DNA of 64,000 nt from Posidonia oceanica (lineage: Eukaryota > Streptophyta > Magnoliopsida > Alismatales > Posidoniaceae). The stretch lies in NCBI GenBank assembly GCA_037176725.1, contig JAZBRS010000050.1, forward strand, positions 19,362,001 to 19,426,000, read 5' to 3'. The translations under genes were made by a program, and so were the position numbers. This document shows, in pieces, positions 1 to 27,917 of this stretch. The notes under the pieces are model-generated. The model ran no database searches. It was given only the letters and a program-made list of their open reading frames with translations, and was not told the origin of the DNA. Each line of letters starts with the position of its first letter. Positions within the stretch are counted from its first letter, which is position 1.

Positions 1-497
1 TGGAAGCCGGCGCACCATGTCTTCTGCTTCGGAAGGACTAAACTGACACCAACTCTGGAGGAGGTGCACCGCATCTGTGGCTTCTCCCGGCTGATGGGAC
101 CGCCCATTTTCATGAGGCGCGATAAGTACATAGTGGTCCTCTACAAGCTATCTAGGCTATCTATTGACCGGTGCCAGCAAAGACTGATCTGCACCAGCAG
201 CCCCACGCCCATGCTGCGCCTGCACTACTTTGATGAGATCATAGACAAGCGTGTTGAACTCGGAGATGATCTATGGCTTCAGGGATTTGTCACCCAATTT
301 CTGGGAGAACTGATATTCACTCACGGCCGAATGACAGTCGCGATAGAAATTGCTGAAATCACACTTGCTGTGGTGACTAGGCAAATAGACCTGGCACCAG
401 TCGTCTTGGTTGAAACATACTGCGGACTGGACTGCATCTCCCACAGCTGCCGCCACTTCCACAGCTGCAGAGTGCTAGTACAGATCTGGTTGGCTGC
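1..497 (+). pseudogene. DUF7745-like 3' ORF of element B, first exon-like piece (split by insertion of element A)
   Basis: Frame 1 is open from the first base to the insertion point, 166 codons with no stop. It aligns throughout with residues about 60-225 of the complete 397-residue homologue in element A (shared motifs include LTPTLEEVH-ICGFS, GPP-FMR and ELGD-LWL-GFV). The frame continues at 26208 after removal of element A and one copy of the GCTGC duplication; the two pieces together keep the reading frame to a TAG at 26734-26736. This means the ORF was open when A inserted. The start codon lies outside the window. The family (DUF7745, related to the plant mobile domain) has no established biochemical activity, so I assign none. 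Confidence 0.8.
493..497. repeat. Target-site duplication of element A, left copy (GCTGC)
   Basis: GCTGC immediately precedes the TGTAGCG end of the left LTR of element A, and the same five bases follow the TCAACA end of the right LTR at 26203-26207. Five base pairs is the usual duplication length for Ty3/gypsy integration. Removing A and one copy restores an alignment of the DUF7745-like protein to its sister copy without gap. Confidence 0.95.
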
Positions 498-612
498 TGT
501 AGCGATCCCGATCGGAATCAGGCTCGCTATTTAGCGGCGATTGGATCCGAGGAAGAGGCTCGACTCGAAAACACTTGAAATCGAGGAGAAAAGAGAAAGA
601 TAAGACAAATCA

Positions 613-621
613 GAGTCGCCA
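613..621 (-). other. Primer-site-like motif inside the A LTR
   Basis: On the element's sense strand this reads TGGCGACTC, identical to the first nine bases of the real primer-binding site at 20240-20248. It lies about 115 bases inside the LTR end. The same motif occurs at equivalent places in the right A LTR (20365-20373), B (35621-35629) and C (56395-56403), and as TGGTGACTC in D (46555-46563), where the true primer site has the same C-to-T change. Confidence 0.6.
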
Positions 622-1124
622 CCATGTCTATTAACGGGAGACAAGGAAAACCAAGGGAAATGCGTGAATTAACACGCAAAACCAAGCCAAAAATGCAAAG
701 CAAAGCAATGCAAAAGAAACAAATGCAAATACAAGCAAATGAGATGACTCTAGCCTAGGATAAGGGCAGTACGGTCATTGCGGGCCAAAAGACAGGGCAA
801 GGACTCCTGTTACGTGCGGGGAAGGTGTTAGGCAGCCCCGACACGCCCGAAAATCGGTCTTTCTAGGCTTACGCTCGCATACGCAGGGAAATGCAGGATT
901 GAATGCCTATGTGCCTATGAATGCCTAAATGAATGCTCAAGATGTGCTCTAAGTGGGAAGGGGCAAAGCAAGGAAAGTAAACGTGCTGTCTAAGTGCTCA
1001 GCTACGCTGTATGTGTTCCGAACCGGGCGAAAACTGGCTCGTGAGAACTCCAGGCAGTAAGCATCACAGCCCTATATGCAAATGCAGGCGAAAAAGCAAA
1101 ACAACGGTAAAACCATGCAATGCG

Positions 1125-1390
1125 ATCGACATGCAAGAGAAAACGACGTAAAACACGCAAAACGAGGCGAAAAACAAGAAAGCGCGCAAAATGGTGCAAA
1201 AAGACAAGGTCGGCACGTAAAATGGGCGAGAAAACAAGGCGGCACGCAAATTGGTGCAAAAGACGGTGACGGGCACGCAAAACTGTGCCAAAAACAGGGC
1301 GAGCGTGCAAAACGATGCGAAAGACAAAGCAGGCACGCAAAACGGTGCCAAAACGAGAACGGGCACGCAAAACGGTGCCAAAAGCTGCGA
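1125..1390 (-). repeat. LTR minisatellite with GGCAC/GTGCC inverted-repeat units
   Basis: About eight to nine degenerate units of roughly 30 bp, with the core GGCACGCAAAACGGTGCC, in which GGCAC and GTGCC can pair around an 8-base loop. Equivalent arrays lie at 20875-21135 (right A LTR), 34738-35110 (B LTR, opposite orientation) and 55600-55870 (C LTR); the D LTR has a weaker version (about 36000-36180 and 47090-47270). It is not coding: the open frames that run through it are arginine/lysine-rich artefacts of the repeat. Confidence 0.7.
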
Positions 1391-2059
1391 GATAAAACCT
1401 CGGAAAACTGTGCGAATGCTAAATGCAAAGAAGAGATTAGAAGATGCCAAAGAGGAGCAAGACAATGTGTGTGTAAGAACAGACATTGTTTAGGACCACC
1501 CAGGATAGGTGTGAAGACCTACAAAGGGGAGAGTGAGCAAACGGAGGGATTACCACCTCTTTTGCGACCATTTCCCACTAAACCGTTCCACAGTGTGTCT
1601 CGCATGCTGCCCAAAGCTCGCGATGCGATCGGATCGTGAAAAAGGGGGGAAGAAAGTCACATTAAGTGGTAAATCTAGGGAAAACTCAACACAAAACACA
1701 TGGGGAAACGCGAAATGGAGATCTGAGTTGATAGACAAGAAGAGAAGGCCCTATTCTACATGCTCAAAGAGATAGAAATCGAAAACGAGGAAAACTATGC
1801 AAATGGCATGCAAATGAATGCAATGCAGAGGTTCAGGAGGACATACTTGGAAATCCGGGGGTCTGATCTGAGATCTGCTTGGTCCATGCTGAAGAGCGCT
1901 TCGCTGCGGTCGCCTGGGCAGCTTACTTGAGAAGATCCAACGGCCGAATCGGAAGATGTCGCAGCTTCAAGGTAGAAGGGCCAGAACAGGGGAGAAGAGC
2001 AGATCTAGGTGTTCAGGAGGTCCTAGGGGTGTGCAAAAGGTCCTCCCAAGTGAAGGGGA

Positions 2060-3030
2060 GCTAAAGGTGCTTAGTGTGTGCAAAAGGATGCTAAAATGCA
2101 GGACTAAATGAATGCAGAATGCATGCACAAGCAAAAAGAAACAAGGGGAACAAACTTGGAAAAGACAAGAGTTCAAAAGCATTTTTGAAAAAGAAAAGGG
2201 GCTAAAATGCAAATTTTCACAAAAGATGGGGTCCACAGAGGAGGGTTTTGAAAACAGGAGAGGGCAGAGGGTTATCTTGCAAAAGACTGGGCTCAGAAAG
2301 CTAATTTGAAAAGAGGGTATGCACTGGAAGAAGTTTTAAAGACAAAAAGAAATCAGAATGCAATTTTGGAAAAACTAGGGTCTGAAATGCAAATTTTCCA
2401 GAAAACTGGGTTCTGGGGAGTCTGGGAATGCAAGTGGAGGGTCTACATGCAATTTTGTAAGCACAGGAGCTAAGATGCAACTTTAGGGGCAAAACAGTCT
2501 TTTTACATGGTTTTTAAAAGATGCAGGGACCTATGTGTGATTTTTGGATCATGCAGGGGTCAAATATGCAATTTTGTATGGTAAATATGCTCTGAAAACA
2601 CTGAAAAGGACTGATGTGCAATTTTTGAAAAAAATAGGGGTCAAAATGCAATGCAGTAAGCAAAAATGCATGGAAAACAGTTACTGTCCATTTAAAATGG
2701 ACCTAAATGCGAATGTGCAAAACCATGAGGTAAAACATGCAATGCAGTATGCAAAAATTAAAAATAAAACCTAAGTTTCTACAGTGCATGGACCTATATG
2801 CAAAATCAGAAACATGCAGGGATGCAGAATGCAATATTATAAGGCAAAATTAACACATTAAAATTAAATAAACTACTGCAGGACTCAGATGCTAAAATGA
2901 AGAACAGAAGGGCTAAACTTAAACTTTTTATAACTAGGAAGCACAGTAAACGGACTAAACTGCAAATACTAAAAACCATAAACAGATCATGCAATTTAAT
3001 ATGATTTCCATTAAAAAATAACAGCAGATT
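2060..3030 (-). repeat. Degenerate AT-rich tandem repeats in the A LTR
   Basis: Many diverged units built around AAAATGCAATTTT and GGGGTC blocks repeat through this kilobase. Their complements (GCATTTTAGACCCTGCATG-like) fill 33000-34020 in the B LTR and 53930-54880 in the C LTR, and 21810-22780 in the other A LTR. Period is irregular, about 45-95 bp. No coding sequence is evident. Confidence 0.6.
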
Positions 3031-3119
3031 AAATGAAATAAGGACTGGAATGTAAAATGGCAGAAACTTGGACTAGATATGCAATATTCACCAAAAAACT
3101 ATAGCCAGAGAAAAATAAA

Positions 3120-4950
3120 ACAACAGTAGAAGGCCGACGGCCGTGGGCACTGTAGCAGCAAGCTGCTAGCGCCCGCGACCGCCGGCACAGGGATGCTGTA
3201 GGCGTGCAGACCGGCGGGAGAGCTGCTCCTGCTCCGAGCGGAAGTCGAACGACGATCGGCGGAGGTCGACGCGGCCTGGAACGGACTGGAGCGGTCGTCG
3301 GAGTTCCACAGAGTTTCAGAAGGTTCGTCCGGCCGATTGACGCAGCGACGCGGCGCTCTGAGGACCGGAGAACACTCCTGAGGTTCGTGCGAACCTGAGG
3401 GGATTGCTGGAGGCGCGTTCCGCTGGCCGGAGCGACGTGAAGACCAGGAGAACTCACCGGAGAAGACGACCCTGGCCGGAGCTTGACTCGGCGCAGGAGA
3501 GCCGGAGACCCTATTCTAAAGGCTGGAGAAGCAAGAGGGGAGGAAGAGGAGGCTAGGGGAAGTGGAATTTACCTGGTTCCGTGTTTGAGATGCCCTACCG
3601 ACGACGGTGGCTTCAGAGGTCGCCGGTGGAGTCTGTCCGGTTGCTGCGGGTGCTGTCGGCTGCTCGCGAGGGCTGGAGTCGCTTCAGAACATTCCTCCGG
3701 TGCTTCCCAGACGATCGGATGGAAGCTTCGGAGCTCAGGCGGCGATTCGGCACTTTGTGGGTTCAGACAGATGGCCGGAGGTCGGAGGGGTTGTTCGCTG
3801 CACGTCGAACTGGATGGGATCCTCCGGGAGGTTGCTGGAGGTCCGGTGAGGGGTTCTGGATGATTGGATTATGGTTCTGGAGAGTGTAGATGGAGATTGA
3901 AGGTTGGTCTGATTTCTGGTCCGAAGGAGGGGTAAGCGTTTGTGGTGAAGATTTCGGTCTGTGATGGAGGAGAAGGCTGAAGGCTAGGTGTTTCGGGAAG
4001 GTGGAGTTCAGGCGAATATCTGGGGAAGGTTTGGGAAGATGCGGTGGACTGTGGTGAAGGCAGTTTCAGGAGGGATTGGAGTTGGCTTGCAGTTAGCTTC
4101 TGCGGTGGATTCAGGTGAACTGGTGGTGGTTCTGGGTGGTGAAAGGCCGTGGAAGGGTGGAGGAAGATTGCTGGGTTTCTGGGTGAACTTGGGGGATCAA
4201 TTGGGAGAGGAATGGAGGCTTGAAGTGGTGCTGGGTTATTGGAAAAGAAGAAGAAGGGTCTGCTGTGGATTTCAGGGGGAAAAGGAGAAGAATTGGGTTG
4301 GGAATGGCTCTGGAATGGGTGGCCTCTCTCCGGGAAGCCAAGAACTCTCTCAGGCTCTCTCCTACTACTCTCTCTTCTCTGGAATTGGATGGTGAAGAGG
4401 AAGAAGGACGAATGGTCTCTCAGGTGGGGGAAGTTGGATTCTGGAATTGCTCTCTGGTTCGCTAACTGCTGGTTCTCTTTGATTGCTCACACCGATTGCC
4501 AACTGAAGATGGTTGCTGACGGACGAAGGTTTATATGAGGAGGAGCTGCCGGTACGTGCGCTGGAATTTTTGAATTCAACGGCGTCGCACTGCAGCTGAA
4601 AGGAGACGGATGTCGGCGAGACGACGGGCATTGAATGCCTCCCGGAAATGGTGCTGAGATAGAGGAGAAGCGGCGAGCTCTGTTGCTGATCTGACGGAAG
4701 CTTTGAAATTTAAAATGGAGGAGGGAGGACTGTTGCTGGCCGCGGGAGAAAACCGGTGGAAAGAAAAACGCAGAAGGTTGAGGAAGAAGAAGGAAGAAGG
4801 AGGCCGGACTGTGGGCCGAAAAGAAAAAAAAAATAATAAGGAAGAAAGGGAGAAGCGGGCTGACGGGCCCAGTAAGAAAAAAAAGAAATAAAAATGAGAA
4901 GGAAGAAAGAAAGAGAGGGAAAAGAAGAGAAATAAAATAGGAAAAAAAAT
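3120..4950. other. GC-rich then purine-rich LTR stretch, no gene seen
   Basis: This part of the LTR is GC-rich with CpG-containing CCGG blocks, then G-rich, ending in a GAAGAAG-type purine tract. The longer open frames here have low-complexity composition (Gly/Arg/Trp or Ser/Pro rich) and are repeated only because the LTR is repeated. I see no recognisable protein, RNA gene or promoter motif. Confidence 0.5.
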
Positions 4951-4959
4951 AAATTAAAA

Positions 4960-5720
4960 ATAAGTAGAAATATTAGGGTGCTTGTGCTGTGAATTAGGAT
5001 CTTAATCAGATTTTTTTAATGACTTCTTTTGGTTAATTAGTGTGGTTTAAATGGGTTTTGGTCTTGATTAGGGTTTTAGGGTTCTTTTTTGTTTTTAATT
5101 AATTTTCCATTTTGATTAAGTGTTTGCTAAATCTTTTTAAATTGTTTTTTTAATTGTGTTTTTCTTGTTAAGTACTTAGGATGTTAATTAGGATTTTTAA
5201 GATTTATTTTTAGGTTAATTAGAGTGGGTTTTGGGTTTCTTAGTTTTAGTCTTTTAGGTTTTTTTTCTTTCTTAAGTCTTTTGAATTAGGTTTTCGATTT
5301 TTATTTGTTGATTTTTCTTGATGTTTTTTAATTGGGTTTCTCTACTCTGATGGAGTGTTTTTAAGTCTTTTTAATGTATTTTTCATTTCCTTTTTAATTA
5401 AATTCTCAGGTTGTTTTTTCTTAGGTTTGCTAAGTTAGGCTTTTTCTTTCATTAATTACTTATCTTAGTGTATTAATTGTTTTACCTTTTTTAGGGTTTG
5501 TTTTTTAATTCTTTTGATAGGGTTTTCAGTTTTGGTGGGTTTTGATTTTATTTTAGTTTTTTCCTTGATTTTTCAGTATTTTCTTTTTGGTTTGTTTTGC
5601 ATTTTTTAGTTTGTATGTTTGATTTTCTTTTTAGCTTGATTTAGTTAAGTTTGGGTTTTTAATTGCTTGTTTAATGTTTTTTAATTGTTTTTCTTAGGGT
5701 TCTGATTTGTTTCTTTTATA
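4960..5720. repeat. T-rich low-complexity stretch of the A LTR
   Basis: About 760 bp of T-rich sequence (A-rich on the sense strand) with recurring GGTTTTTAATT and TTAGGGTTTT pieces. The counterpart regions are 24715-25470, 30290-31040 (B) and 51360-52130 (C). Single TTTAGGG words occur but never in tandem, so this is not telomeric repeat. Confidence 0.6.
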
Positions 5721-6436
5721 TTTTGGGGTTTTACAGATTCTTAGGGGTTTTCATGGATTTTTGCAAGAGAAGGCAAAGGAAAAGAGAAGGAAGAGGGAAA
5801 CGGCAAAAAGAGGGAAATAAAAGGAAAAGAGATAGGTTGGAGAGAAATGATTTTTTTAAAATTAGGGAAAGTGTTAAAAATAAAGTAAAAATAGGAATAA
5901 GATAGAGGAGGGATAGAAGTACAAAGGGGGCCCACAGCCAGGCCAGAAAAAGGCAAGAGGGTGATGAAAAGAGAGATGATAATCAGGAGAGAGAGAGGAG
6001 AGAGAAAATGATAATCCTAGAGAGAGAAAAGGATAATTTGGATGAAAGGGGGTCTTAAGGGTCTTGGAATGGGATGAAAATTGGTGAGTGGATAGTCTAG
6101 GGTTTGAGGTGTTGGTCCTGAAGTTTTGGTTTGATTCTAAGAAGGTTTTGGAGGGGTTTTAAGGTGTAGAAAAAAAGGGGGTTTCACCTAAGTTTTCTAG
6201 GGTTTTTGGGAATGGTCTAGGTTTGGAAATTTCTGGGTTCTTGGGTAGGCTTGCTAAGTGGGTGTTGGTGGGTTTTCCTATGGATTTTGGTTAGGTTTTG
6301 AGCTTGGGAAGAGGGGTAAAGGCTTAGGTCAAGATGGGCTGATTTTGGAGGGTAAGGAAGAGGATTGGGGTTTGGTTTTGGGTTAGGTTTGAGTCCAGCA
6401 ATCACCAGGAGGGCCCCAAGGATCCAAGCCTGCCAA

Positions 6437-6518
6437 GATGGGGTGTCAACAGATGCCCCTCCCTGAGCAAGGTCAAGCGGAGTGAGGCCGCTGCTCAGGG
6501 TTGACAAGACACCCCATC
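6437..6518 (-). promoter_or_regulatory. Polypurine tract of element A within a palindromic LTR-edge structure
   Basis: The sense strand reads AGGGAGGGGCATC directly before the LTR start TGTTGACACC; this is the expected plus-strand primer site. The tract is embedded in nested inverted repeats: GATGGGGTGTC (6437-6447, in the LTR) pairs with GACACCCCATC (6508-6518); GTCAAC (6445-6450) can pair with GTTGAC (6500-6505); CCCTGAGC (6461-6468) pairs with GCTCAGGG (6493-6500). The same design is present at 29528-29609 in B and 38657-38730 in D. The structure's role is unknown. Confidence 0.8.
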
Positions 6519-7002: not shown

Positions 7003-7925
7003 TGACGGGCTTATCGTCCGGATAGTTTACGGTCCTATCAACCGGGAGTGATAGTTTAGGTTATCAGCCTGGAATGACAGTTTACGGTCCTGTCAACCGG
7101 AAGCAGTTGTGAGTGATAGTTACTGGATATCAGCCGTATAACATGGTTGTGTGGGATAGTTTACAGTCCTATCAACTGGCGGATAGTTTACAGACCTATC
7201 AACTGGCGGATAGTTTACAGACCTATCAACTGGCGGATAGTTTACAGACCTATCAACTGGAAGCCACAAACCATGAGTGATAGTTACTGGATATCAGCCG
7301 TATAACGCAAATGCCGGATAGTTTACAGTCTATCAACTGGAGCGACAGTTTACGGTCCTGTCAACCGACGGATAGTTTACAGACCTATCACCTGGAGGAT
7401 AGTTTACTGTCCTATCAACTGGAAACGGCATTGCGAGGGACAGTTACTGGATGTCAGCCGTATAACATGATTGCGCGTGATAGTTTACAGTCCTATCAAC
7501 TGGCGGATAGTTTACAGTCCTATCAACTGGCGGATAGTTTACAGACCTATCAACTGGCAGATAGTTTACAGACCTATCAACTGGAAACGCGCAATGATGA
7601 GGGATAGTTACTGGATATCAGCCGTATAATGCAATTGCTGGTGATAGTTTAGGATATCAGCCTAGCGATAGTTTACAGTCCTATCAACTGGTGGATAGTT
7701 TACAGACCTATCAATTGGAGGATAGTTTACAGACCTGTCAACTGGAAACCGCAATTGCAAGGGACAGTTACTGGATGTCAGCCGTATAACACAACTGTGG
7801 GCCAACCATGGATCGGCCCAGATGATAGTTTAGGTTATCAGCCTGAGAGTGCTTGATTGTTTGATAGTTTCGGATATCAGCCTAGAATGTGATTGATTGT
7901 TTGATAGTTTCGGATATCAGCTTAG
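7003..7925 (-). repeat. Covarying short-hairpin array, GATAG type (element A)
   Basis: By my count about 27 consecutive units of 16-19 bases with short linkers such as AACTGGCG. The typical unit is GATAG-TTTACAGTC-CTATC, a 5-bp stem with a 9-base loop. Where the left arm changes to GACAG the right arm changes to CTGTC; a second subtype, GATA-GTTACTGGA-TATC, has a GACA/TGTC variant. A GATAAG/CTTATC unit opens the array (7005-7024). One unit (near 7722-7740) breaks the rule (GATAG with CTGTC). Loop sequences are nearly constant while stems covary, which is the signature expected for paired structure. The open reading frame across 7311-7607 is simply the repeat read in frame. Confidence 0.85.
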
Positions 7926-7939
7926 AATGTGATTGATTG

Positions 7940-8585
7940 TTTGATAAGAGGGGACGAGATCATGATGAGAATTACTGCTAAAGAGGGGGTGAGATCATGA
8001 TGAGAATTACTGCTAAAGAGGGGGGTGAGATCATGATGAGAATTACTGCTAAAGAGGGGATGAGATCATGATGAGAACTATTGCTAAAGAGGGGGATGAG
8101 ATCATGATGAGAATTACTGCTAAAGAGGGGGATGAGGTCATGATGAGAGTTACTGCTAAAGAGGGGGATGAGATCATGATGAGAGTTACTGCTAAAGAGG
8201 GGGTGAGATCATGATGAGAATTACTACTAAAGAGGGGATGAGATCATGATGAGAGTTACTGCTAAAGAGGGGGATGAGGTAATGATGAGAATTACTGCTA
8301 AAGAGGGGGGTGAGATCATGATGAGAATTACTGCTAAAGAGGGGATGAGATCATGATGAGAGTTACTGCTAAAGAGGGGGATGAGGTAATGATGAGAATT
8401 ACTGCTAAAGAGGGGGGTGAGATCATGATGAGAGTTATTGCTAAAGAGGGGGTGAGATCATGATGAGAACTATTGCTAAAGAGGGGGATGAGATCGTGAT
8501 GAGAGTTACTGCTAAAGAGGGGGTGAGATCATGATGGGAACTATTGCTGAAGAGGGGGATGAGATCATGATGAGATAAAGAGGGG
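7940..8585 (-). repeat. 36-bp tandem repeat array of element A
   Basis: About 17 head-to-tail copies of a unit containing GATCATGATGAGA, ATTACTGC and TAAAGAGGGG, with one or two-base length differences in the G run and small substitutions (ACT-ATT for ATT-ACT). Homogeneity suggests recent unequal exchange or reverse-transcription slippage. Preceded by short GATTGATTGTTTGATAG repeats (7850-7945). Confidence 0.85.
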
Positions 8586-8800
8586 GATGAGGTAATGATG
8601 AGAATGATTGATTGATAAGATATCGGACTTATCGGCCGGCAAAGAGGGGATGAGGTAATGATGAGAATGATTGATTGATAAGATATCGGACTTATCGGCT
8701 GGCAAAGAGGGGATGAGGTAATGATGAGAATGATTGATTGATAAGATATCAGACTTATCGGCCGGCAAAGAGGGGATGAGGTAATGATGAGAAGAAATCA
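8586..8800 (-). repeat. 62-65-bp tandem repeats with GATAAG hairpins (element A)
   Basis: Three full units and part of a fourth. Each has GATAAG-ATATCGGA-CTTATC, a 6-bp stem, followed by a CGGCCGGCAAAGAGGGGATGA-type linker and ATGATTGATTG. The equivalent region in B (27330-27835) has about twelve such hairpins. Confidence 0.85.
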
Positions 8801-8939: not shown

Positions 8940-9450
8940 GATTGTCGTGCTTGTCAGACGAGTAGTTTGGGGTACCAGCCCGCTAGGGACTCAGCTGGGG
9001 ATGATCAGCTGAGGAGGATGACAGGTTGACAGACCTTTCACCGAACAGTTTGGGGTGCCAGCCCGCAGGGGACTCAGCTGGGGATGATCAGCTGAGGAGG
9101 ATGACAGGTTGACGGACCTTTCGCCGAGCAGTTTGGGGTGCCAGCCCGCAGGGGACTCAGCTGGGGATGATCAGCTGAGGAGGATGACAGGTTGACGGAC
9201 CTTTCGCCGAGCAGTTTGGGGTGCCAGCCCGCTAGGGACTCAGCTGGGGATGATCAGCTGAGGAGGATGACAGGTTGACGGACCTTTCGCCGAGCAGTTT
9301 GGGGTGCCAGCCCGCAGGGGACTCAGCTGGGGATGATCAGCTGAGGAGGATGACAGGTTGACGGACCTTTCGCCGAGCAGTTTGGGGTGCCAGCCCGCAG
9401 GGGACTCAGCTGGGGATGATCAGCTGAGGAGGATGATGATCCAGCTGGGG
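8940..9450 (-). repeat. 83-bp tandem repeats with two hairpins per unit (element A)
   Basis: Six units (starting near 8960, 9046, 9128, 9211, 9294 and 9377). Each contains a GCA-GTTTGGGG-TGC hairpin (GTA/TAC in the first unit, a compensated change) and a 7-bp CTCAGCT/AGCTGAG hairpin. A GACAGG...CCTTTC element follows with one mismatch. Related units occur in B at 27010-27135. The units are highly similar, so expansion is recent. Confidence 0.85.
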
Positions 9451-9745: not shown

Positions 9746-10939
9746 TCAGGCCTTCTTCGACCGTCGGGAGTCGGGAAACAAAGGGCCGCCTGGCGGAATT
9801 TCAGTGATAGGCCAGAGCTGTCGGACTTTAGCTTCATATTCAGGGGTGCATCCTACACCTCTCGCAGCTGCAATGTCTGTAGATTGGACCCCATGCTGCA
9901 TCAGACTAGCAAGCTTCTTGGTTGGGGCAGTTGTGCTGAGAGGGTACATCTGTAGAAGCTGGGGCGCTGTACTGTCAATGAAGGCGCCCTGCTGGAAGCC
10001 GAACTGGCGCATGACCCTGATTGGATGGTACTCTACGCCTGCTGTGAAACCTGGTAGAATGATCAGCCGCGCGTCACGCGCGCTGAAGAAGACAGTGAAT
10101 GGCTCTGCTGCAGATGGGACAATACGCCAGGTTATAGCGTCGTCAGTCAGTGCTGACAGCCTCTCGTATTCTTTATTGACGCTCTTTTCTGTCTTGGCAC
10201 GGGCGCTGCTGCAGTAGGCTTCAAAGGCATGCACTTGAGGGCGTAAGAGGTTCGTCTCTAAGTGCGCGGTTAGCCAGACTTGTATGAGTGCTCCGCAACC
10301 GTGGAAGTGGCGACAGCGATGAGAGATGCGGTCCAGCCCGCGATAGGTCTCTGCCAGGACAACTGGTGCCAGGTCTATGTGCTGGGTCACCACAGTAAAT
10401 GCAATTTCTGCAACCTCGATGGCCACTGTCAGTCGGCCATGGGTAAAGATCAGCTCGCCCAGGAAGCGGATAACAAATCCTCGGAGCCACAGCTCATCTC
10501 CGAGTTCTGCGCGCTTGTTTATGATATCATCGAAGTGCGCAAGGCGAAGCATAGGTTCAGGTCCGCTGGTGCAGACTAATTTCTGTTGGCAGGTTCGAGT
10601 GGGGAGCCCAGTTAGCTGGCTCAGGACTTGGAGATATCCGTCGCACCTCATGAAAACAGGCGGCCCCAGGATCTTTGAAAAGCCACAGATCCAATGCACC
10701 TCCTCCAGTGTGGGTGTCAGCTCAGTCTTGTTGAAACGGAAGACATGATGCGCCGGCTTCCAGAATCTTGCGGCGGCACACAGAAGGTGGCGGCTGACCT
10801 CCACATCAGCAGCCTTCAGCAGCTTAGTTGGTATGCCCCACAGGCGCAGCTGTTCACAGTCTTGTAGAGTGAGCCTGCTGATCCATTCTCGCAGGGCTTC
10901 CGAGCAGTGTGCAGGAGTTAGCAGAGTAGGAAAACCCAT
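9746..10939 (-). CDS. DUF7745-like (plant-mobile-domain-related) protein, intact 3' ORF of element A
   Basis: A complete 397-codon ORF, ATG at 10937-10939 to the stop at 9746, with no internal stop or frameshift. The N-terminal half carries a plant-mobile-domain-like pattern (RFWKPAHHVFRF, then LTPTLEEVHWICGF and GPPVFMR); the C-terminal half has the TWRIVPSAAEP and GVEYHPIRVMRQFG blocks that I associate with DUF7745 proteins. It ends in a basic tail (DSRRSKKA), a possible nuclear signal. It lies downstream of integrase in the same orientation, the position of extra 3' ORFs in some Tat elements. It is the only undamaged ORF in the element, although gag-pol upstream is full of stops. Activity unknown; related plant mobile domain proteins act in transcriptional silencing, so an anti-silencing or integration role is speculation. 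Confidence 0.85.
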   Translation of the reverse strand: MGFPTLLTPAHCSEALREWISRLTLQDCEQLRLWGIPTKLLKAADVEVSRHLLCAAARFWKPAHHVFRFNKTELTPTLEEVHWICGFSKILGPPVFMRCDGYLQVLSQLTGLPTRTCQQKLVCTSGPEPMLRLAHFDDIINKRAELGDELWLRGFVIRFLGELIFTHGRLTVAIEVAEIAFTVVTQHIDLAPVVLAETYRGLDRISHRCRHFHGCGALIQVWLTAHLETNLLRPQVHAFEAYCSSARAKTEKSVNKEYERLSALTDDAITWRIVPSAAEPFTVFFSARDARLIILPGFTAGVEYHPIRVMRQFGFQQGAFIDSTAPQLLQMYPLSTTAPTKKLASLMQHGVQSTDIAAARGVGCTPEYEAKVRQLWPITEIPPGGPLFPDSRRSKKA

Positions 10940-12429
10940 TACGCTGATTACAGAGGGACAGGCTGATAGTTGCAGCGCCTGAAAGTACCTGCTATCAATA
11001 AACAGTCAGATCTCGCAGGTATGTTCTTTGACAATAAACAGAAACTGAGGCTGATAAAGTAGTTCCATATGTATTCAGCAGTTGATAACAGAATATGGCA
11101 GTTAAGCATAAATAAACAAAGGGGATATGCAGAGGTCTTGCTGACACGGGGGCGAGGGCCGGCAGGTGATCTGGACCAGCGCAGTTCGAGTGTCGTCGAT
11201 GCGCTCTGCTGGGGAGGAGTACTGCCTCAGGGCCGAAGCGTGTTGCAGAGCGGAGAGATTGATGGAAGAGGAAAGGAATGGAAGAGGATGCTCGTATGCA
11301 GGATGCAAGTGCTGTGCTTATGATGATGAGTATTATGCTTGGATGGGTGAGCATGCTTGGATAGGTGAGTATGCCTGGATAGAATGAGTATGCTTGGATA
11401 GAATGAGTATGCTTGGATAGGTGAGTATGCTTGGATGTCCTCAGCATACGGAGTGCTTTGGTGCCTGCTGCGAAGGAAGGGAGTGGTCCCTGACTCACTG
11501 GGCCCTACCTAGACTCTTGGCTTGCTGGTGGCTCTCCGGAACGGGTTGTTGGCATTATACAGGTGGTGGTGTGGTGAGGACAGGCTACTGGCCGCACTCT
11601 CAGGACCTACACCTATTCTTTCAGCTCTCTTTTTTTGATTGATTTCTCCCTCATAGGTGTGCAGTCTTTCTCTGCCCCTAACTAGGAGAAGGTGAGTGTT
11701 CGCTCTTGAAGGGATGTGGTAGACCCTTTTAGGCTTGACATGCTGGGGATCTCTAGTGAGGCATGGGGGATAGCGGTGCCTGTGTTTTTCGGGCTACATT
11801 TTGCCTTTTTTCTTGTTTTTTGCTTTGCTTGCTTTTTTCCTCTTTTTTTTTTGGTTTTTGTTCTATCTCTTTTCTCTTTTTTTTTTTTGCTTGTTGTTTT
11901 GCTTTTCTCTCTTTTTTTTTTTTTCAGGCTTTTGCTATCCCCATTTTGGTGGCAAAAGAAGGGTGCTTGGATTGTAATGGATTTAGGCTTTGGGTCTGCT
12001 GTGTGATGGGTAGAAGGAGCAGGGTTAGACTGCACACCCCTATCTCTAGGGCCGGCTTCTGTCTTCGTTTTCTGTTCCTTGGATGTGCCCAAACCTAGGT
12101 GTTTACTCTCGCTTTTTCCAGACTCACATCCTAACATTTTTTCTCCCTCAGAGGTGTATGTCCTTGCGAGATTAGGCGGTTCGCCTGTCCTCGTTGGTGG
12201 TGGCTCCCTCACTAGCTAAGACATCTGAGTAGTGCCAGGTGAGGTAGGGTGACTCTTTCCAGAGCAGGCAAGCACTTCCGGTTTTCATCACCAGGCCGAA
12301 GATACAATGCTTGAGAGGATGACGATGATGATTCGAAAGGAAGGGATGCAAGAGTTGAAAGGATGATGATGATGATTTGAAATAGAGGTTGCAAGATGGG
12401 AGAAGGGCATCTGCAACGGGGCCGCTTTC
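10940..12429 (-). other. Non-coding spacer between integrase and 3' ORF of element A
   Basis: Holds a minisatellite of six or so 18-21-bp TATGCTTGGATAG units (11331-11436) and a strong polypyrimidine tract (about 11800-11935, runs of T with C). A lysine-rich open frame on the minus strand (11682-12212) is a product of that tract and not a credible gene. ATGATGATG-type simple repeats occur at 12320-12380. On the sense strand the tract is purine-rich and could act as a second plus-strand priming site, which is inference only. Confidence 0.5.
11331..11436. repeat. Minisatellite, TGAGTATGCTTGGATAG unit
   Basis: Five to six tandem units of 18-21 bp with small changes (GGTGAG or AATGAG between cores). 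It lies in the spacer between integrase and the 3' ORF of element A; no counterpart was noticed in D. Confidence 0.75.
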
Positions 12430-13303
12430 GGCAACTGATAGTACTTCTTTAGATAGCAGAGGTTGACGGGCTCAGACTACTCGACCCAGTCCATATCCTC
12501 AAGAGTTACAGCACCTCCCGAAACGATCTGTTTGACCACAAAGGGGCCACGCCAATTGGGTCGGAATTTCCCTCGACCATCAGGCAGATGAATGGCGCGC
12601 AAGACAAGGCCCCTGGCTGAAAGCTTCTGGGCTGGACCTTCTTCAAGAATGCTCTGGCCATCCGCTTCTGATAGCAGTGAGCGTTGTGCATAGCTTGCAG
12701 TCTGCGCTCATCAATTAAGTTCAGTTGGATGCAGCGGTCTTCGACCCATTCTGCTTCTTCCAACCCAGCTTCTCGTAGGATCCGCAGAGAGGAGATCTCT
12801 ACTTCAACAGGTAACACCGCTTCCATTCCGTATACCAGAGAGTACGGGGTGGCTCTTGTAGAGGTCCGGATTGATGTCCTGTACGCCCAGAGTGTGTACG
12901 GGAGCTTGTCGTGCCAATCCTTGTGGGTTTCTGCCATTTTCTTCAGAATCTTGACAATGTTCTTGTTTGCAGACTCCACAGCTCCGTTCATCTGTGGCCG
13001 ATAGGGCGAGGATCGATGATGCTTGATCTTGAGACTCTGCAGGTATTCCTCGATCCTCTTGGCAATGAAGTTTGTGCCATTATCAAAGATGAGTGAGTGC
13101 GGGACCCCATATCGGGCAACGATATTGTTTCTGATAAATTTTTCTGTTGCCACAGCGGTGACTGTTCTGTAAGAGGCTACTTCCACCCACTTGGTAAAGT
13201 AATCGATCGCTACCAGAATGTAACGATGACCATTTGAAGCAGCAGGGTGGATGGCGCCAATGACATCGATCCCCCAGGTGGAGAAAGGCCATGGCGAAGA
13301 CAT
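12430..13303 (-). pseudogene. Integrase core of element A, N-terminal part deleted, C-terminal frameshift
   Basis: The minus strand encodes a retroviral-type integrase core, beginning SSPWPFSTWGIDVIG. The catalytic triad is visible: Asp in GIDVIG (codon at 13265-13267), Asp in FDNGTNF (13082-13084) and Glu in AVESANK (12974-12976), giving the D-35-E spacing typical of the family. The N-terminal zinc (HHCC) domain is missing because the preceding pol sequence has been deleted up to 13293-13303. In the C-terminal part the frame shifts near 12609-12613, after FQPG; the family's C-terminal domain (with a GPFVV-type motif and an ending like DMDWVE) continues in another frame to about 12470. The active-site residues are intact, but the protein is neither full length nor in frame with gag-pol. 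Confidence 0.85.
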
Positions 13304-16300
13304 CCGCGTATTCTTTCAGGAATGCGATGAACTCTGCTCGAGCCTGGGAGGACAGCTGGGCACTGATACGAACTTCTCTAACTTCCTCAGCTGTGCCGAT
13401 GTTGACAACCTCTGTTTCTTCTTCAACATGGAGGTTGGGGCCTTCTGGGTCGTCGTCATAGGGCCGGAACTCGGGCAATGATTCATCAGTCTCATCCATG
13501 CCCGTATCATCCTCCTCTCCATAAGCAATAAGTTCCGAGAGGATCTCTTTCTCAAAGGAAGGGCTTGTGATGTCGAAAGAGTGCATATGTTCCGCTGCTT
13601 GGCCCTGGTGACGCTTCAGGATGGTCACGCTTACTCTAATGTTCTTGTAGCCTCGGTGCGCGACCTCCGTCCCAGCAACTCCTTCTACTGTTTGCTCTGG
13701 CCTGACTAATTCTGCTGAGTGCTCTGCTGATTCTGCTGAGGGCCTTGCTGATTCTGCTGTTGATGCTGCTGACTGTTCTGCCGCTGAGGCTGCTGACAGT
13801 TTTGTTACTGGTTCTGCTTTCTGCTCTGTTACTGCTGCTGCATGAACTGCTGATGGTTCCTCCCTCGGGTCTTCTAATGTGCTTGCAGAGGATATGCCAG
13901 ACTGGCGGCTGATCAGGGCACTGCCGCTCGATATACTGCTCAAGTGAGGCATGTGTTGCACAAACCACCTAGACCCGCCTTCCGATTGGAGAGTAATGAG
14001 CTCATCTGGTCTAGGGGAGTCCGGCGCTGCTGAGTCTTCTTCCAGGACCATGATAGAGGCATGGTCTTCTTGCAGAGGAGGGTCCATAACCACGGCTTTC
14101 CCTTTCCTTTCTGCGGCTTGATGCTCTGCCAGGTCTTCTGCTATCGACTTGATCTGTTCTTGATAGAGCAGCTCTAAGTCAGACATCCAAGAATCGACCT
14201 GGGCTTCTATCGCCACTCCTTCTTCCTCGTCCGAGGGGGAGTCGACGTAGTAGGCGTCGGGGGCCTGCGGCACTGGCCCGGCTGCAAGACGGATTGCTGC
14301 CCTGGGAATCTGCATGATCTGGTTCACGGGTGCGTCCGCTGATGGCAGTTCTGATGTAGAAGGCCCAAATAGACAAGTCAGCGGTGCCATAGATGGATAT
14401 GCTGCCAGGGTCACTGTTGGAGAGTAAGCAGGGGTGCTCTTCAGAGGGCTCAAGGGCCCAGAGAGTGTAGTGCTCAGTTGGCCTTTTGTATCGGGCCGTA
14501 ACTGAGAGAGTACAGCCTCTGACGCCATGGGGTCTTGCCATGAGAGCTGCTGCTGGTTGTCGGGAGGATGCGAAGCGGACTGCGCCTGCTGCATTCCCGG
14601 AGATGTGGATGCTGGAGCGGGCTGAGCCGCGCTGTTGACTGTACTGATTAACTGCCCTTCCAGAGATAGGGACAGTGGCACTTATGTTACTGTGACCGCT
14701 GGTAGCATGCTTGATTCTGCCAGAAGGAGTGTCTCTGACTCCTGCACTGCTGCTGTCTGTACTTGGGAAGCTGATGTGGCTGCAAAAGAGTGGAAACTTG
14801 CCTGCTCTGCCACAGGGCCTGCTGAGCTGCCTGCTGTTTCTGCCAGAGGAAGAGCTGAATAGATTGGCTGTGTGGCCTCTGCTCTGATCACTGTTTCTGC
14901 TGTGCTGGTTGGGACTGCCTCTGTTGTACCAGACTGCTCCTCATCCGAGCAGTAGTCCTCAACACACATCCAATCCTCTGTCGGTACCGTGTCTTGATCG
15001 TCGGATGATCCCAGGGTTCCTGCACTGGTAAAGTTAGTGAGGTCTCTGGGATTGGCTGATTCTGGATTGTTGAGCTGAGAGCAGTGATCTTCGTTGGTCC
15101 TGGGCTCGTAGCCGAGGCCTTCAGATTTCCTTCGCTCCACTGCTACGATCGGCTCTGCGATCCCCTGGCCGTGACGCCCGAGCGGCGTACCCTTTATGTA
15201 ACCCCACCTGTGACATACATTCTCGACCATTCAAAAGGGGTTGCTGTGAACGGTCAAGGAGTTGACACGTTCAAGATCAGGAATGAAGTTAACCGGCTCG
15301 CACCGATTAACGCGATATAGGGCTTCAGAAGTCTCGGGGTCAAATGGGATAGATTGCGAAGACACGGGGGAGACTGCTTCGATCCGCTCCTTCTCAAAGT
15401 TCTCCGCCATGACGACAATGACATCGTCGCCGCGACGGTACTTTATCATTCGATGGAGGGTCGAAGGAAGGACCTGATGCTTGTGAAGCCAAGGGCGCCC
15501 AAGCAGAAGATTGAAGTTCGGCTGCAAGTCGACGACATAGAATTCTACGTCGAAGACAACCGGGCCAATAGCGAGAGGAATAATCAGGACCCCTAGAGCG
15601 TCATGGTGAGTGTTGTCAAAGGCTGTCATTCCCTTCACGGCTGGCGTGATGTCCTCGGCTTTGAATCCGGGCTTGGTTGCAGTACGCAAGGGGTAGACGT
15701 TAAGGCCTGACCCATTATCAACCAGTGTTAGGGGAATGCGAAAGTTTTTGAACTGCACCGTGACGAACAGGGGCTGGTTATGATTAATCCCCGCCAGAGG
15801 CAGCTCATCACTCGTGAAAGAGATGACCTGGGGCTCCGCAATCAACCCAACCATGCTCTCCAAGGCTGAAGGCTCAATGGACTGGGACACACTGGCAGCC
15901 TGGAACACACAAAGAAAAGCCTCGCGGTGTTCGGCAGAGGTGTGGATCAAATCCCAGATGGAGATGTCGACTTTGACCTTCTTAAGCTGGGAGGTCAAGT
16001 CCGCCCTAGGTTGGCTCCTTCTAGCAACTGGAGGGGTGATTCTAGCAGGTTCTGAGGGAGTAGTGGCAGGAAGCTGGGTTACCACAGGCTGGGTAGGGAT
16101 TTGGCTAGTTACAGGCTGATCTGGAGTTGGATCTACTATGGGTTGGCTAGAGGGTGGGGGCATAACAGGTCTAGGGTGAGTTGGCCTAATTGCCGGTGTT
16201 GGGGGCCTGTAAACCCTCCCCGATCGCGTTACTTCCGCGCACATCTCTGTGGCGTAGCTGTAAGGGACGCGATGGGTGTCCAGGGTCAAATCAATGACGA

Positions 16301-18929
16301 CTGGAGCACGTGCTGCGAGCACAGGAGGGGTTACAGGGGGACCTACGGGGTACTGAGGTCTCTCTAATGGGTATGGTTGTTGGGGTGGGAAGGCTGAGGC
16401 AGGTTGAGGTCTGCCTAGAAGGTGTAGCTGAGGTCGCCCTAAGAGGTGAATGGGGGAACTAGGCTGGGCCCTAGCTAGAAGGTGCACAGGGGATTGAGCC
16501 TGGGGAAGCACGATGGGAGGCGCGAGAGGGCGCTCCGGCCTGGCATGCGGTCGGATCAAGTGAATTCCCGACTCGGAGCCGGCAACTGCCGCGAGATAGA
16601 GACTGACTGGGAAAGGCTCAGAGATGTCAGAGATAAGATCAGAAGGGTCGACCACAAAGGTAGCAGGCCCAGAGGGAAAGACAGAGTGGATGCCTGAGGT
16701 TCCCGCCCCTCCCGGATAAGAGTGCTCCGGTAAGGGTTGGCGGGTGATGCCAGAATGCGGGGGAACAGCTGAGTGTGCAGATGCATGAGTGTGTGCTTGA
16801 GTGGATGCCTCGTGCGTGTCGATCACAATCGTTCCCGATTCGATCAAGTCCTGAATTGCGTTCCGTAGGGAGAAGCAATTGTCCGTCGAATGCTCGACAC
16901 TTCGATGGAAATTGCAGAAGAGGTCTGACCTAAACCAATGCGGCAGAGGACTTGGCAGCGGACGAACCTCCGGGAACTTCAGGAACGATGTAACCTTTGG
17001 CAAGATGGCCGTGAGTGGTTCCACCAGTGGGGTGAAACTACGCCTCTCAATGGGTGGCCTTCTTTGCCTTGGGTGTGAGCCTTGCTGAACCGGTGCGGCA
17101 GGATAGACCGGTCTAGCGGTGGTAGTGATGTGTGGTGTGTGTGGATTCCTAGGTGCAGGAGCGTACACCATCTGAGCTGGGGCAGGCCGGGATGGCAAGC
17201 GAACAGGCACAGCAGGAGAATCGACGAACGCAACTGCGGGCTTCGGCGAATCCTTCCTCTTCGAGCGGTTGTTGTTGCTGCCGCTGTTGTTGTTGTTGGA
17301 GGCGCTGCTGTTGGCACTGTTGCTGCTTATCACTGCCTGCTTAGCGAACGCAGAGAGAGCCGGGAAGTTGCCACTCCGCAAAGAACTCTCCACGCACGCT
17401 CCAGCTCTGATGAGTGCCGCAAAAGTAGTGACTGGTTGGATGCTAAGCAGAGCTCCGAGAGACGGCTGCGCCTGTTTGATAACGATCTCGATAGACTCCT
17501 CATCAGAGGGTCTATCTCGAACCTGAGAGGCAAGGGCACGCCAGCGGCTGACGTACTCCCCGAACGGCTCGCCAGAATTCTGCTTGATCGCGATCAAGTC
17601 CGCCCTCTTTGGGACCAGATCGAGGTTGAAGGAGTACTGTTCCAGGAACGCCTGACTGAGGTCGTTCCAAGTCTTGATGGCTGACATATCAAGCGATGTA
17701 AACCACTTGAGTGCCGGCCCGGTCAAACTCTTCTAGAACAGGCAGATCAGCAACCTCTCGTCAGCCTGAAGCTGAGCGAGATCACCGCAATACGCCTTCA
17801 AGTGTGCTACGGGGCAGCCCCTACCGTTATACTTCTCGAAGTCCGAGATCTTGAACTTCGGAGGGAGTACCGCCTCTGGAAAGCAGCAGAGGTCCTGGAA
17901 TTGGTAGGTCTGGTGCTCAGTACCCTGCACTAGTTGTAGTGCCTTCTCCAAGACGTCCATCCGGTTATTGATGGGGTCTGGGATTGCTACTGTAGGAGAG
18001 GGATCAGCAGGGGTAGCGAGCGCATACGCCGAATGGGTCGCACCTAAGTGCTCCTCCGGATCTACCATAGTGTCGCCTGGTGGAGCAACGGGATGGCCGG
18101 CGTATCCGTGCTGGGGGACTGTGTATGCAGGAGTGTATGCAGGGTGCTGGACCTGATGCAGAGGAGAAGAGTAGATGCCATGCTGTGCTGTGATAGGGGC
18201 AGGATGACGGAGCACCAGTTGCTGTACAGGCGGGGTGCCAGACAACGAGCCAGTGAGGTACTGGGCTCCAGCCGGTCCAAAAGACTGACCACCAGGGGGA
18301 AGTGGAGCATGCTGTGCTAAGTGTTGTGCAGCAGGAGGCGGTAAACGGGCCCCCATCGTCGGAACCGTGAGCTGTTGAGACGATGGTCGAGGCGGAGGTG
18401 TGGAGGTCGATGCATGGAATGCAAGAACTGGCCTCAGAGGAACCTCAGGAACGACAGGAATAGAGGAAGGACGAACTGATAGAGCCATGCCCTGTAGTTT
18501 CTGGGCAAGCTCCATCAGGTGCTGGTACTGCACTTCGGGCGTCTCGCCAGTGGGGACGCTGAAGTGCAGTGCCGGTGAAGGCTGAGAAACAAGTGGCACG
18601 GACACAGACTGTCCGGGAGGGAAAGATTCTACAGCAAAGGTCGCAGCGACGGTGGAAGGGATGTCGAAAGCGACGTATCCCTAGGATGGAGGGGGCAGTG
18701 GCGTCTCCGAAACGCGAGTAACGGTCGTCAAGATGGATTCGGCGACCGGATCTGGAGGAAGAGATGCTTGCCACTGTCCCGGGACGTACTGAGAACCTAG
18801 AGACGTCAGAGGAGGAAACCCTGGCGTCGGAGGGGGAACAAGGGGGACAGAAGGAGCAACCGGAGGGGCCAGAATGGAAACACCCTCCGTGACAGGAGTG
18901 AAAAGAGGCTCACTAACGTACTGGGCCAT
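13293..18929 (-). pseudogene. Gag-protease-(RT) polyprotein of element A, four stops and RT/RNase H deleted
   Basis: Starts at the ATG 18927-18929 (MAQYVSEP). A proline-rich N-terminus is followed by a retrotransposon gag domain (about 17840-17350; FEKYNGRGCPVAHLKAYC, then LTGPALKWF), an atypical CX2HX4HX4C knuckle (about 16877-16918), a retropepsin site DNGSG (GAT at 15717-15719) with a NLLLGRPW motif, and a long acidic Ala/Glu-rich linker. It ends in the EYADVFA motif that precedes RT. In-frame stops: TAG 18681-18683, TAG 17733-17735, TGA 15231-15233, TAA 14682-14684. The sister copy C has CAG, CAG, CGA and TCA at those places. At 13293-13303 the sequence jumps to integrase in a different frame; the RT and RNase H domains are absent. 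Confidence 0.88.
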
Positions 18930-20248: not shown

Positions 20249-20249
20249 C

Positions 20250-23200
20250 TGTAGCGATCCCGATCGAAATCAGGCTCGCTATTTAGCGGCGATTGGATCC
20301 GAGGAAGAGGCTCGACTCGAAAACACTTGAAATCGAGGAGAAAAGAGAAAGATAAGACAAATCAGAGTCGCCACCATGTCTATTAACGGGAGACAAGGAA
20401 AACCGGGGGAAATGCGTGAATTAACACGCAAAACCAAGCCAAAAATGCAAAGCAAAGCAATGCAAAAGAAACAAATGCAAATACATGCAAATGAGATGAC
20501 TCTAGCCTAGGATAAGGGCAGTACGGTCATTGCGAGCCAAAAGACAGGGCAAGGACTCCTGTTACGTGCGGGGAAGGTGTTAGGCACCCCCGACACGCTC
20601 GAAAATCGGTCTTTCTAGGCTTACGCTCGCATACGCAGGGAAATGCAGGATTGAATGCCTATGTGCCTATGAATGCCTAAATGAATGCTCAAGGTGTGCT
20701 CTAAGTGGGAAGGGGCAAAGCAAGGAAAGTAAACGTGCTGTCTAAGTGCTCAGCTACGCTGTATGTGTTCCGAACCGGGCGAAAACTGGCTCGTGAGAAC
20801 TCCAGGCAGTAAGCATCACAGCCCTATATGCAAATGCAGGCGAAAAAGCAAAACAATGGTAAAACCATGCAATGCGATCGACATGCAAGAGAAAACGGCG
20901 TAAAACACGCAAAACGAGGCGAAAAAAAGAAAGCACGCAAAATGGTGCAAAAAGACAAGGTCGGCACATAAAATGGGCGAGAAAACAAGGCGGCACGCAA
21001 ATTGGTGCAAAAGACGGTGACGGGCACGCAAAACTGTGCCAAAAACAGGGCAAGCGCGCAAAACGATGCGAAAGACAAAGCAGGCACGCAAAACGGTACC
21101 AAAACAAGAACGGACACGCAAAACGGTGCCAAAAGCTGCGAGATAAAACCTCGGAAAACTGTGCGAATGCTAAATGCAAAGAAGAGATCAGAAGATGCCA
21201 AAGAGGAGCAAGACAATGTGTGTGTAAGAACAGACATTGTTTAAGACCACCCAGGGTAGGTGTGAAGACCTACAAAGGGGAGAGTAAGCAAACGGAGGGA
21301 TTACCACCTCTTTTGCGACCATTTCCCACTAAACCGTTCCACGGTGTGTCTCGCATGCTGCCCAAAGCTCGCGATGCGATCGGATCGTGGAAAAGGGGGG
21401 AAGAAAGTCACATTAAGTGGTAAATCAAGGGAAAACTCAACACAAAACACATGGGGAAACGCGAAATGGAGATCTGAGTTGATAGACAAGAAGAGGAGGC
21501 CCTATTCTACATGCTCAAAGAGACAGAAATCGAAAACGAGGAAAACTATGCAAATGGCATGCAAATGAATGCAATGCAGAGGTTCAGGAGGACATACCTA
21601 GAAATCCGGGGGTCTGATCTGAGATCTGCTTGGTCCATGCTAAAGAGCGCTTCGCTGCGGTCGCCTGGGCAGCTTACTTGAGAAGATCCAACGGCCAGAT
21701 TGGAAGATGTCGCAGCTTCAAGGCAGAAGGGCCAGAACAGGGGAGAAGAGCAGATCTAGGTGTTCAGGAGGTCCTAGGGGTGTGCAAAAGGTTCTCCCAA
21801 GTGAAGGGGAGCTAAAGGTGCTTAGTGTGTGCAAAAGGATGCTAAAATGCAGGACTAAATGAATGCAGAATGCATGCACAAGCAAAAAGAAACAAGGGGA
21901 ACAAACTTGGAAAAGACAGGAGTTCAAAAGCATTTTTGAAAAAGAAAAGGGGCTAAAATGCAAATTTTCACAAAAGATGGGGTCCACAGAGGAGGGTTTT
22001 GAAAACAGGAGAGGACAGAGGGTTATCTTGCAAAAGACTGGGCTCAGAAAGCTAATTTGAAAAGAGGGTATGCACTGGAAGAAGTTTTAAAGACAAAAAG
22101 AAATCAGAATGCAATTTTGGAAAAACTAGGGTCTGAAATGCAAATTTTCCAGAAAACTGGGTTCTGGGGAGTCTGGGAATGCAAGTGGAGGGTCTACATG
22201 CAATTTTGTAAGCACAGGAGCTAAGATGCAACTTTAGGGGCAAAACAGTCTTTTTACATGGTTTTTAAAAGATGCAGGGACCTATGTGTGATTTTTGGAT
22301 CATGCAGGGGTCAAATATGCAATTTTGTATGGTAAATATGCTCTGAAAACACTGAAAAGGACTGATGTGCAATTTTTGAAAAAAACAGGGGTCAAAATGC
22401 AATGCAGTAAGCAAAAATGCATGGAAAACAGTTACTGTCCATTTAAAATGGACCTAAATGCAAATGTGCAAAACCATGAGGTAAAACATGCAATGCAGTA
22501 TGCAAAAATTAAAAATAAAACCTAAGTTTCTACAGTGCATGGACCTATATGCAAAATCAGAAACATGCAGGGATGCAGAATGCAATATTATAAGGCAAAA
22601 TTAACACATTAAAATTAAATAAACTACTGCAGGACTCAGATGCTAAAATGAAGAACAGAAGGGCTAAACTTAAACTTTTTATAACTAGGAAGCACAGTAA
22701 ACGGACTAAACTGCAAATACTAAAAACCATAAACAGATCATGCAATTTAATATGATTTCCATTAAAAAATAACAGCAGATTAAATGAAATAAGGACTGGA
22801 ATGTAAAATGGCAGAAACTTGGACTAGATATGCAATATTCACCAAAAAACTATAGCCAGAGAAAAATAAAACAACAGTAGAAGGCCGACGGCCGTGGGCA
22901 CTGTAGCAGCAAGCTGTCAGCGCCCGCGACCGCCGGCACAGGGATGCTGTAGGCGTGCAGACCGGCGGGAGAGCTGCTCCTGCTCCGGGCGGAAGTCGGA
23001 CGACGATCGGCGGAGGTCGACGCGGCCTGGAACGGACTGGAGCGGTCGTCGGAGTTCCACAGAGTTTCAGAATGTTCGTCCGGCCGATTGACGCAGCGAC
23101 GCGGTGCTCTGAGGACCGGAGAACACTCCTGAGGTTCGTGCGAACCTGAGGGGATTGCTGGAGGCGCGTTCCGCTGGCCGGAGCGACGTGAAGACTGGGA

Positions 23201-27310: not shown

Positions 27311-27329
27311 CACGAAACTCATTCATTTG

Positions 27330-27876: not shown

Positions 27877-27917
<41 letters not shown>

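Follow-up and report, generated by a model that had tools for sequence, protein, structure and literature searches.

The 64-kb window of the Posidonia oceanica genome analysed here (the whole stretch of contig JAZBRS010000050.1 under study) contains nested long terminal repeat (LTR) retrotransposons, and three of these, designated elements A, B and D, carry tandem arrays of short units. Two interleaved and covarying inverted repeats, S1 and S2, make up each unit, and the arrays are placed between the last open reading frame (ORF) and the 3′ LTR. Since the order of the segments, the loop lengths, the A-rich third loop and the mixed stems are then all explained at once, the module may best be read as a pseudoknot of the sense RNA, a reading to which we assign a probability of about one half. 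We suggest that a module of 21–25 nt has been copied in tandem to form the arrays, that selection acting on the sense RNA of a large plant LTR retrotransposon of Ty3 type, and of related elements, preserves the two interleaved stems of this module, and that S1 and S2 would close together as an H-type pseudoknot. The presence of about 30 copies per element points to avidity: the units likely serve as a multivalent platform on the genomic RNA, which would bind Gag or another protein for packaging, or would protect the 3′ region.

Unit architecture

A sequence-only reading of the window had described these arrays as tiny hairpins of the form GATAG...CTATC with constant loops. The loop is in fact not constant, as it holds a segment S1′ (CCG, CTG, CCA, CCT or CCC) that pairs and covaries with a segment located just 5′ of GATAG (CGG, CAG, TGG, AGG or GGG, respectively). 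In the commonest class of units (class I), the sense strand thus reads CGG-TT-GATAG-GN-CCG-TAAA-CTATC, and the order S1-L1-S2-L2-S1′-L3-S2′ is that of a minimal H-type pseudoknot. S1 comprises 3 bp (nGG/CCn) and S2 4–6 bp (usually GATA.../...TATC), while L1 and the S2–S1′ junction have 1–2 nt each and L3 has 4 nt and is A-rich. Other classes differ in the stems, but follow this order with loops of almost equal length, namely, TGG-CT-GATGA-T-CCA-AAAC-TCATC, AGG-CT-GATA-A-CCT-AAAC-TATC, CGG-CC-GATAAG-T-CCG-ATAT-CTTATC, GGG-CT-GGCA-C-CCC-AAAC-TGCT, GGG-CT-GGTA-C-CCC-AAAC-TACT and CGG-C-GATAGG-T-CCG-TCAA-CCTGTC. In elements A, B and D alike, the unit is read in the same direction on the sense strand, as set by the LTRs and ORFs. 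The loops of an H-type pseudoknot have to be long enough to span the grooves. With a short loop across S2, the longer of the two stems, and the A-rich loop of 4 nt across the 3-bp S1, the units would fit this steric rule.

The units were compared in a sample of 72 arrays, comprising arrays A and B of the window and 70 more from the same genome; the idea that S1 pairs had been drawn from the window before this sample was tested. Class I is represented by 1,218 units, or 159 distinct 24-mers, with membership requiring that at least 17 of the 24 positions agree with the class template, a cut-off which slightly disfavours double changes. Loop lengths are 2/2/4 in 969 of 1,009 class I units and 2/1/4 in 29, while the spacers between neighbouring units differ in both sequence and length (3, 4 and 5 nt in 238, 107 and 171 cases). 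Hence it is the unit, and not the array, that is kept. Within L1, column 11 and L3, one variant alone (C at column 5) recurs inside an array, and it does so in a single array, so that spread variation at unpaired columns is limited to column 12 (A 713, T 378, C 115, G 12). As column 4 stays T, the fourth S1 pair that columns 4 and 12 could form has not been preserved. A third helix considered for class II (GTTA/TAAC) was dropped, the states being G-C 314, A.C 76 and A-T 0.

A scan for interleaved helices on the sense strand yielded 17 in the 943 b of array A and 16 in the 1,068 b of array B, compared with 85 (plus strand) and 94 (minus strand) in the remaining 59,641 b of the window, so that their density in the arrays is about ten times higher. 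On the opposite strand, the two arrays yielded 11 and 11; such a scan cannot pick the strand, because interleaving is symmetric with the loop sizes swapped.

Covariation of the paired columns

When class I is collapsed to distinct types and all 276 column pairs are ranked by mutual information with average-product correction, S2 pair 8-22 ranks first, S1 pair 2-14 second and S2 pair 7-23 15th. The states of these pairs, counted in units, are T-A 1,052, C-G 154, C.A 5 and T.G 2 for pair 8-22, G-C 644, A-T 503, A.C 36 and G.T 29 for pair 2-14, and A-T 1,174, G-C 34 and A.C 2 for pair 7-23. Likewise, an S2 pair is first among 378 column pairs in class II (394 units; T-A 259, C-G 131, C.A 3, T.G 1). 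Units with an S2 of 4 bp were collected in two sets, one pooled (277 units, 67 distinct, in 93 stretches from 73 elements) and one smaller (111 units in 33 stretches, anchored on the loops and the GG/CC core). In the smaller set the inner S2 pairs are AT/AT in 52 units, GC/GC in 33 and GT/AC in 20, with six other combinations occurring once each (one of them matched). When the 210 column pairs of the pooled set are ranked, the first three places are taken by pairs of S2, S1 and S2. The covariation score of the pooled set is 0.432, compared with a mean of 0.252 and a maximum of 0.313 in 500 shuffles, which ignore relatedness, and with at most 0.144 when the pairing partners are slid, a control which, like the column ranking, preserves it; for class I the corresponding values are 0.180 and at most 0.081 with slid partners. 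The class III set included about 20 class I units out of register, so that its ranking is not relied on; the 4-bp sets were filtered differently.

The distribution of copies among class I types is consistent with these rankings. Twenty-nine types are fully Watson-Crick paired (924 units), 35 deviate by G.U only (115 units) and 95 are broken (179 units). At least 30 copies (and 15 arrays) are reached by 7 of the 29 fully paired types, and at least 30 copies by none of the 130 others (0 of 35 and 0 of 95, respectively). The excess of compensated over single-arm changes, which the sequence-only reading had named as the point on which its proposal would stand or fall, thus holds after collapsing to distinct 24-mers, and homogenisation alone is insufficient as an explanation, since broken class I types did not spread.

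Arrays A and B contain 27 and 32 units, as had been estimated from the letters alone. Array A is made up of 16 class I units and one class I unit with a 1-nt deletion, five class II units and five class III units. It includes the two GACAG/CTGTC and two GACA/TGTC forms reported earlier, and one uncompensated GACAG/CTATC unit. Array B is made up of 22 class I, six class II and three class III/IIIb units as well as one GATAAG unit. The GATGA/TCATC unit noticed earlier in array B is indeed present once (class IIIb, 28167-28189); 41 class IIIb units occur in the 72 arrays, and each looks like a GATA/TATC unit with one base inserted per arm at pairing positions, which would represent a compensated insertion. 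The forms GTAG/CTAC, GCAG/CTGC, GATAAG/CTTATC and GGTAAG/CTTACC, likewise pointed out before, are seen in the sequence of element D.

Selection, RNA or DNA, and the competing explanations

With compensated changes found at different pairs and in several classes after collapsing, a selected structure appears well supported, and to this extent the earlier proposal of a selected fold stands; what would be selected is, however, not a hairpin but two interleaved helices. Closing of these helices as an H-type pseudoknot in RNA would follow from their order and loops. RNA is favoured over DNA as the selected molecule by the geometry and by a small number of fixed G.U pairs: among the 111 4-bp units, the outer pair of S2 is G.U in 48 and A.C in 2, GGCA/TGCT and GGTA/TACT are established in 15 and 20 of the 33 sources, respectively, and GATAGG/CCTGTC and GATGGG/CCTATC are further established forms with G.U in S2. 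Taken together, these cases perhaps represent three events.

Several results weigh against a selected sense-RNA pseudoknot. Independent compensated double changes are few (about eight by our count), and, out of the eight class I pairs, the remaining five are found only at ranks 123 to 234 of 276. Single-side deviations in class I exhibit no sense-strand asymmetry, with 40 G.U versus 49 A.C among types confined to one array and 22 versus 24 among types in two or more, opposite in sign to what the 4-bp units show at their outer S2 pair; decay of dead copies, with CpG on both stem arms, would yield such a symmetry, which lends no support to RNA over DNA. For the middle S1 pair of the pooled 4-bp set, A.C occurs in nine and G.T in three distinct types. 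Moreover, a class III type with a broken outer S1 pair (AGG/CCG) has been amplified and accounts for 62 units, distributed over 29 arrays; in 5–15 of the 72 arrays, single-side states of S1 are present two or more times; and the GAAAGG/CCTGTC units of element A as well as several units of element D are broken. Nested folding of the whole arrays, a model which excludes pseudoknots, gave the middle S2 pair a probability of 0.13 (A) and 0.39 (B) and the middle S1 pair one of 0.04, with energies just 1.2 and 2.7 standard deviations below those of 20 shuffles, and the antisense strands of the arrays reach lower fold energies than the sense strands.

The lack of strand asymmetry in class I would also be expected if the selected molecule were DNA, which we consider unlikely. 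A dimeric protein, encoded by the host or by the element itself (e.g., by an ORF with a plant mobile domain, PMD), would then need both half-sites to match; an extra ORF does adjoin the array, and Sirevirus elements possess many palindromic CGG-CCG boxes (PMC2829016). Such a protein would, however, have to deal with two overlapping dyads whose centres are 7 bp apart (S1 at column 8, S2 at column 15), and differently changed half-sites share one array (GATAG/CTATC with GACAG/CTGTC, and CAG/CTG with CGG/CCG). In units with an S2 of 4 bp, moreover, the mismatch that has become established at the outer pair is G.U and not A.C.

It is quite unlikely, in our view, that the pairing arose without any selection, by template switching or quasi-palindrome repair copying one arm onto the other in the course of DNA synthesis or reverse transcription and homogenisation spreading the result. 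According to one proposal, RNA stems originate and persist through template switching (PMC8794818), S2 has 4–6 bp, and GATA/TATC and GATGA/TCATC, differing by one inserted base per arm, might represent a repair product. Yet the 3-bp S1 leaves one guide pair on either side of a middle change, and pair 2-14 is nevertheless the second strongest. The class II inverted repeat GTTA/TAAC has drifted uncorrected, the potential fourth S1 pair is not kept, and the loops are held in sequence and length though the spacers vary. Furthermore, no type with an inverted loop is present among the units listed, although no search was aimed at such types. Of the two alternatives raised by the sequence-only reading, template switching is thus weakened, retaining some plausibility for S2 stems of 4–6 bp, while homogenisation by itself fails to account for a spread limited to fully paired class I types. 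It is very improbable that the pattern goes back to no more than one or two double changes which arose by chance and were then multiplied as arrays were homogenised and elements amplified. The main double changes are founder events (the CAG/CTG state occurs in 50 of 72 arrays, the GACAG/CTGTC type in 29 and the GGTAG/CTACC type in 25), but the pairs top the ranking even with rows collapsed to distinct types, double changes affect several pairs in several unit classes and are also seen in element D, and none of the 95 broken class I types reaches 30 copies.

Copy number and comparison with known systems

The core motif GATAGGNCYGTAAACTATC has 170,652 + 172,837 = 343,489 exact matches in the 2.96-Gb genome, and its reversed control has none; an array-end motif has 7,683 + 7,776 matches. 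In viral and other genome contigs, the core motif gave one single-copy match each, in non-plant DNA, which we took as chance. With hundreds of thousands of units, some 30 tiny putative H-type pseudoknots per genomic RNA, compensated evolution in both interleaved helices and a presumed role as packaging or protection signals, the arrays might, tentatively, constitute a new class of repeat-built RNA element. They also offer a large natural experiment on the evolution of RNA structure in tandem arrays within one genome. A paired grammar that keeps its geometry across diverged elements, of which element D is the only representative here, would make function testable in terms of RNA fold and RNA–protein binding.

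The acceptor pseudoknot of turnip yellow mosaic virus (TYMV) has small stems and loops resembling those of the unit. Compact pseudoknots in an RNA 3′ region, like the proposed fold, are also described for the upstream pseudoknot domain of the 3′ untranslated region of tobacco mosaic virus (TMV; PMC5382211). Unlike in TMV and TYMV, the copy number here is much higher, no sequence kinship is claimed, and fold and function are putative. A scan of the window against Rfam gave five matches with E up to 5, all below the gathering score and none over arrays A or B; one of them, sR17 (minus strand, 27336-27402), lies within the class IV block.

Tandem repeats before the 3′ LTR are common in large plant retrotransposons, and their origin and function are called unknown in a 2025 survey of Retand elements (PMC11963269). 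Like the arrays described here, those of Retand/Ogre type are family-specific and, in the large plant Gypsy elements that carry them, follow the last ORF and precede the 3′ LTR (PMC11963269, PMC3305785), although only about half of the surveyed Retand elements have tandem repeats between pol and the 3′ LTR. This position of the repeats is shared with the Retand lineage, whereas its short LTRs (315–1,194 bp in the survey) are not, the LTR of element A having 5.96 kb. As to the antisense TRP28 ORF that Retand elements have between pol and the 3′ LTR, no antisense ORF of at least 180 aa is listed between 6456 and 12506, and the large ORF of element A in this region (9746-11005) is in sense and matches PMD. 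In the available text of the survey, of a soybean paper (PMC3305785) and of PMC7004042, there is no mention of ‘hairpin’, ‘pseudoknot’ or ‘secondary structure’, nor of ‘palindrom’ in that of the latter two. Among the open-licence papers listed, none was seen to describe arrays of this kind as built from paired or pseudoknotted units; the sequence-only reading, too, knew of no described class of such arrays in plant retrotransposons.

Sirevirus boxes resemble the present units in being short non-coding motifs with a symmetric CGG-CCG core, with up to 32 copies per element, in plant LTR retrotransposons. They are, however, single dyads of Ty1/copia elements, located in the LTRs and close to the envelope gene, and have been interpreted as regulatory sites in DNA (PMC2829016), whereas here two dyads are interleaved and lie outside the LTRs, directly before the 3′ LTR. 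The VANC target arrays of Arabidopsis VANDAL (PMC5735166) likewise consist of tandem motifs that evolve fast and lie in the non-coding part of an element equipped with extra ORFs. In contrast to the elements studied here, VANDAL is a DNA transposon with motifs recognised in DNA, and ‘palindrom’ and ‘inverted’ gave no hits in the accessible part of that paper.

Genomic setting of the arrays

The features of the window are collected in the table. Array A lies between the PMD ORF and the 3′ LTR of element A, with the minus strand being the sense strand. The gag (PF03732) and integrase (PF00665) ORFs of this element are also on the minus strand, integrase being last in the gag-pol order, and a protein search with Gag gave a single weak match, in Prunus armeniaca; this match and the PMD both point to a plant host. 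Plant Ty3/Gypsy elements are marked by an LTR pair, gag, and an integrase placed after the polymerase region, but the ORFs scanned in element A (12506-18680) gave no Pfam match to reverse transcriptase; the element may be decayed or non-autonomous. PMD and G-patch domains are already known in plant Gypsy elements (PMC9289625). Element B is on the plus strand, where its array is followed by the 3′ LTR (an inverse match to the LTR of element A) from about 29590. Element A appears to have been inserted into element B near the last ORF of the latter (1-489 / 26208 onward), with an inverse match at 74% between 1-489 and 10274-10762.

Table. Arrays, repeat blocks and element parts in the window
Feature	Positions	Strand	Remark
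Element A, 3′ LTR	497-6456	-	98.8% identical to 20249-26207
Array A, element A: 27 units, classes I, II, III	7003-7945	-	unit listing
Class I example with compensated S2, CGG-TT-GACAG-GA-CCG-TAAA-CTGTC	7344-7367	-	
Element A, 63-b tandem repeat with three class IV units (CGG-CC-GATAAG-T-CCG-ATAT-CTTATC and variants; one CAG/CCG)	8577-8793	-	
Element A, 83-b tandem repeat with class VI units CGG-C-GAAAGG-T-CCG-TCAA-CCTGTC	8959-9436	-	S2 A.G mismatch
Element A, last ORF	9746-11005	-	match to PMD (PF10536) / DUF7745 (PF24924)
Element A, 5′ LTR	20249-26207	-	partner of 497-6456
Element B, class V/VI units CGG-T-GATAGG-T-CCG-TCAA-CCTGTC	27012-27136	+	S2 with U.G pair
Element B, class IV array, GATAAG/CTTATC units	27326-27844	+	
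Array B, element B: 32 units, classes I, II, III/IIIb, one GATAAG	28025-29092	+	unit listing
Element D, LTR copies	35796-38668, 46885-49757	-	arrays between them
Block D1, element D: GGG-CT-GNNA-N-CCC-NAAC-TNNY and GATAGG/CCTATC-like units	40350-41090	-	some units broken
Block D2, element D	42500-42710	-	

Further repeats accompany these features. In element A, a 36-b tandem array of about 18 copies (7946-8575) holds a small ATCATGAT palindrome without the two-stem grammar, and element B has different repeats in its place. A TCAA-rich simple repeat (27845-28020) is located directly upstream of array B in the sense direction. The LTRs contain internal tandem repeats of about 30 b with a GGCAC...GTGCC inverted repeat (GGCACCGTTTTGCGTGCC) at 1154-1384, 20906-21135, 34747-35097 and 55606-55814, which represent another hairpin-like array, separate from the two-stem units. 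Finally, the LTRs of element D contain 29-b repeats with inverted repeats resembling TTGGACGC/GCGTCCAA at 36282-36338, 38359-38421, 47371-47427 and 49448-49510.
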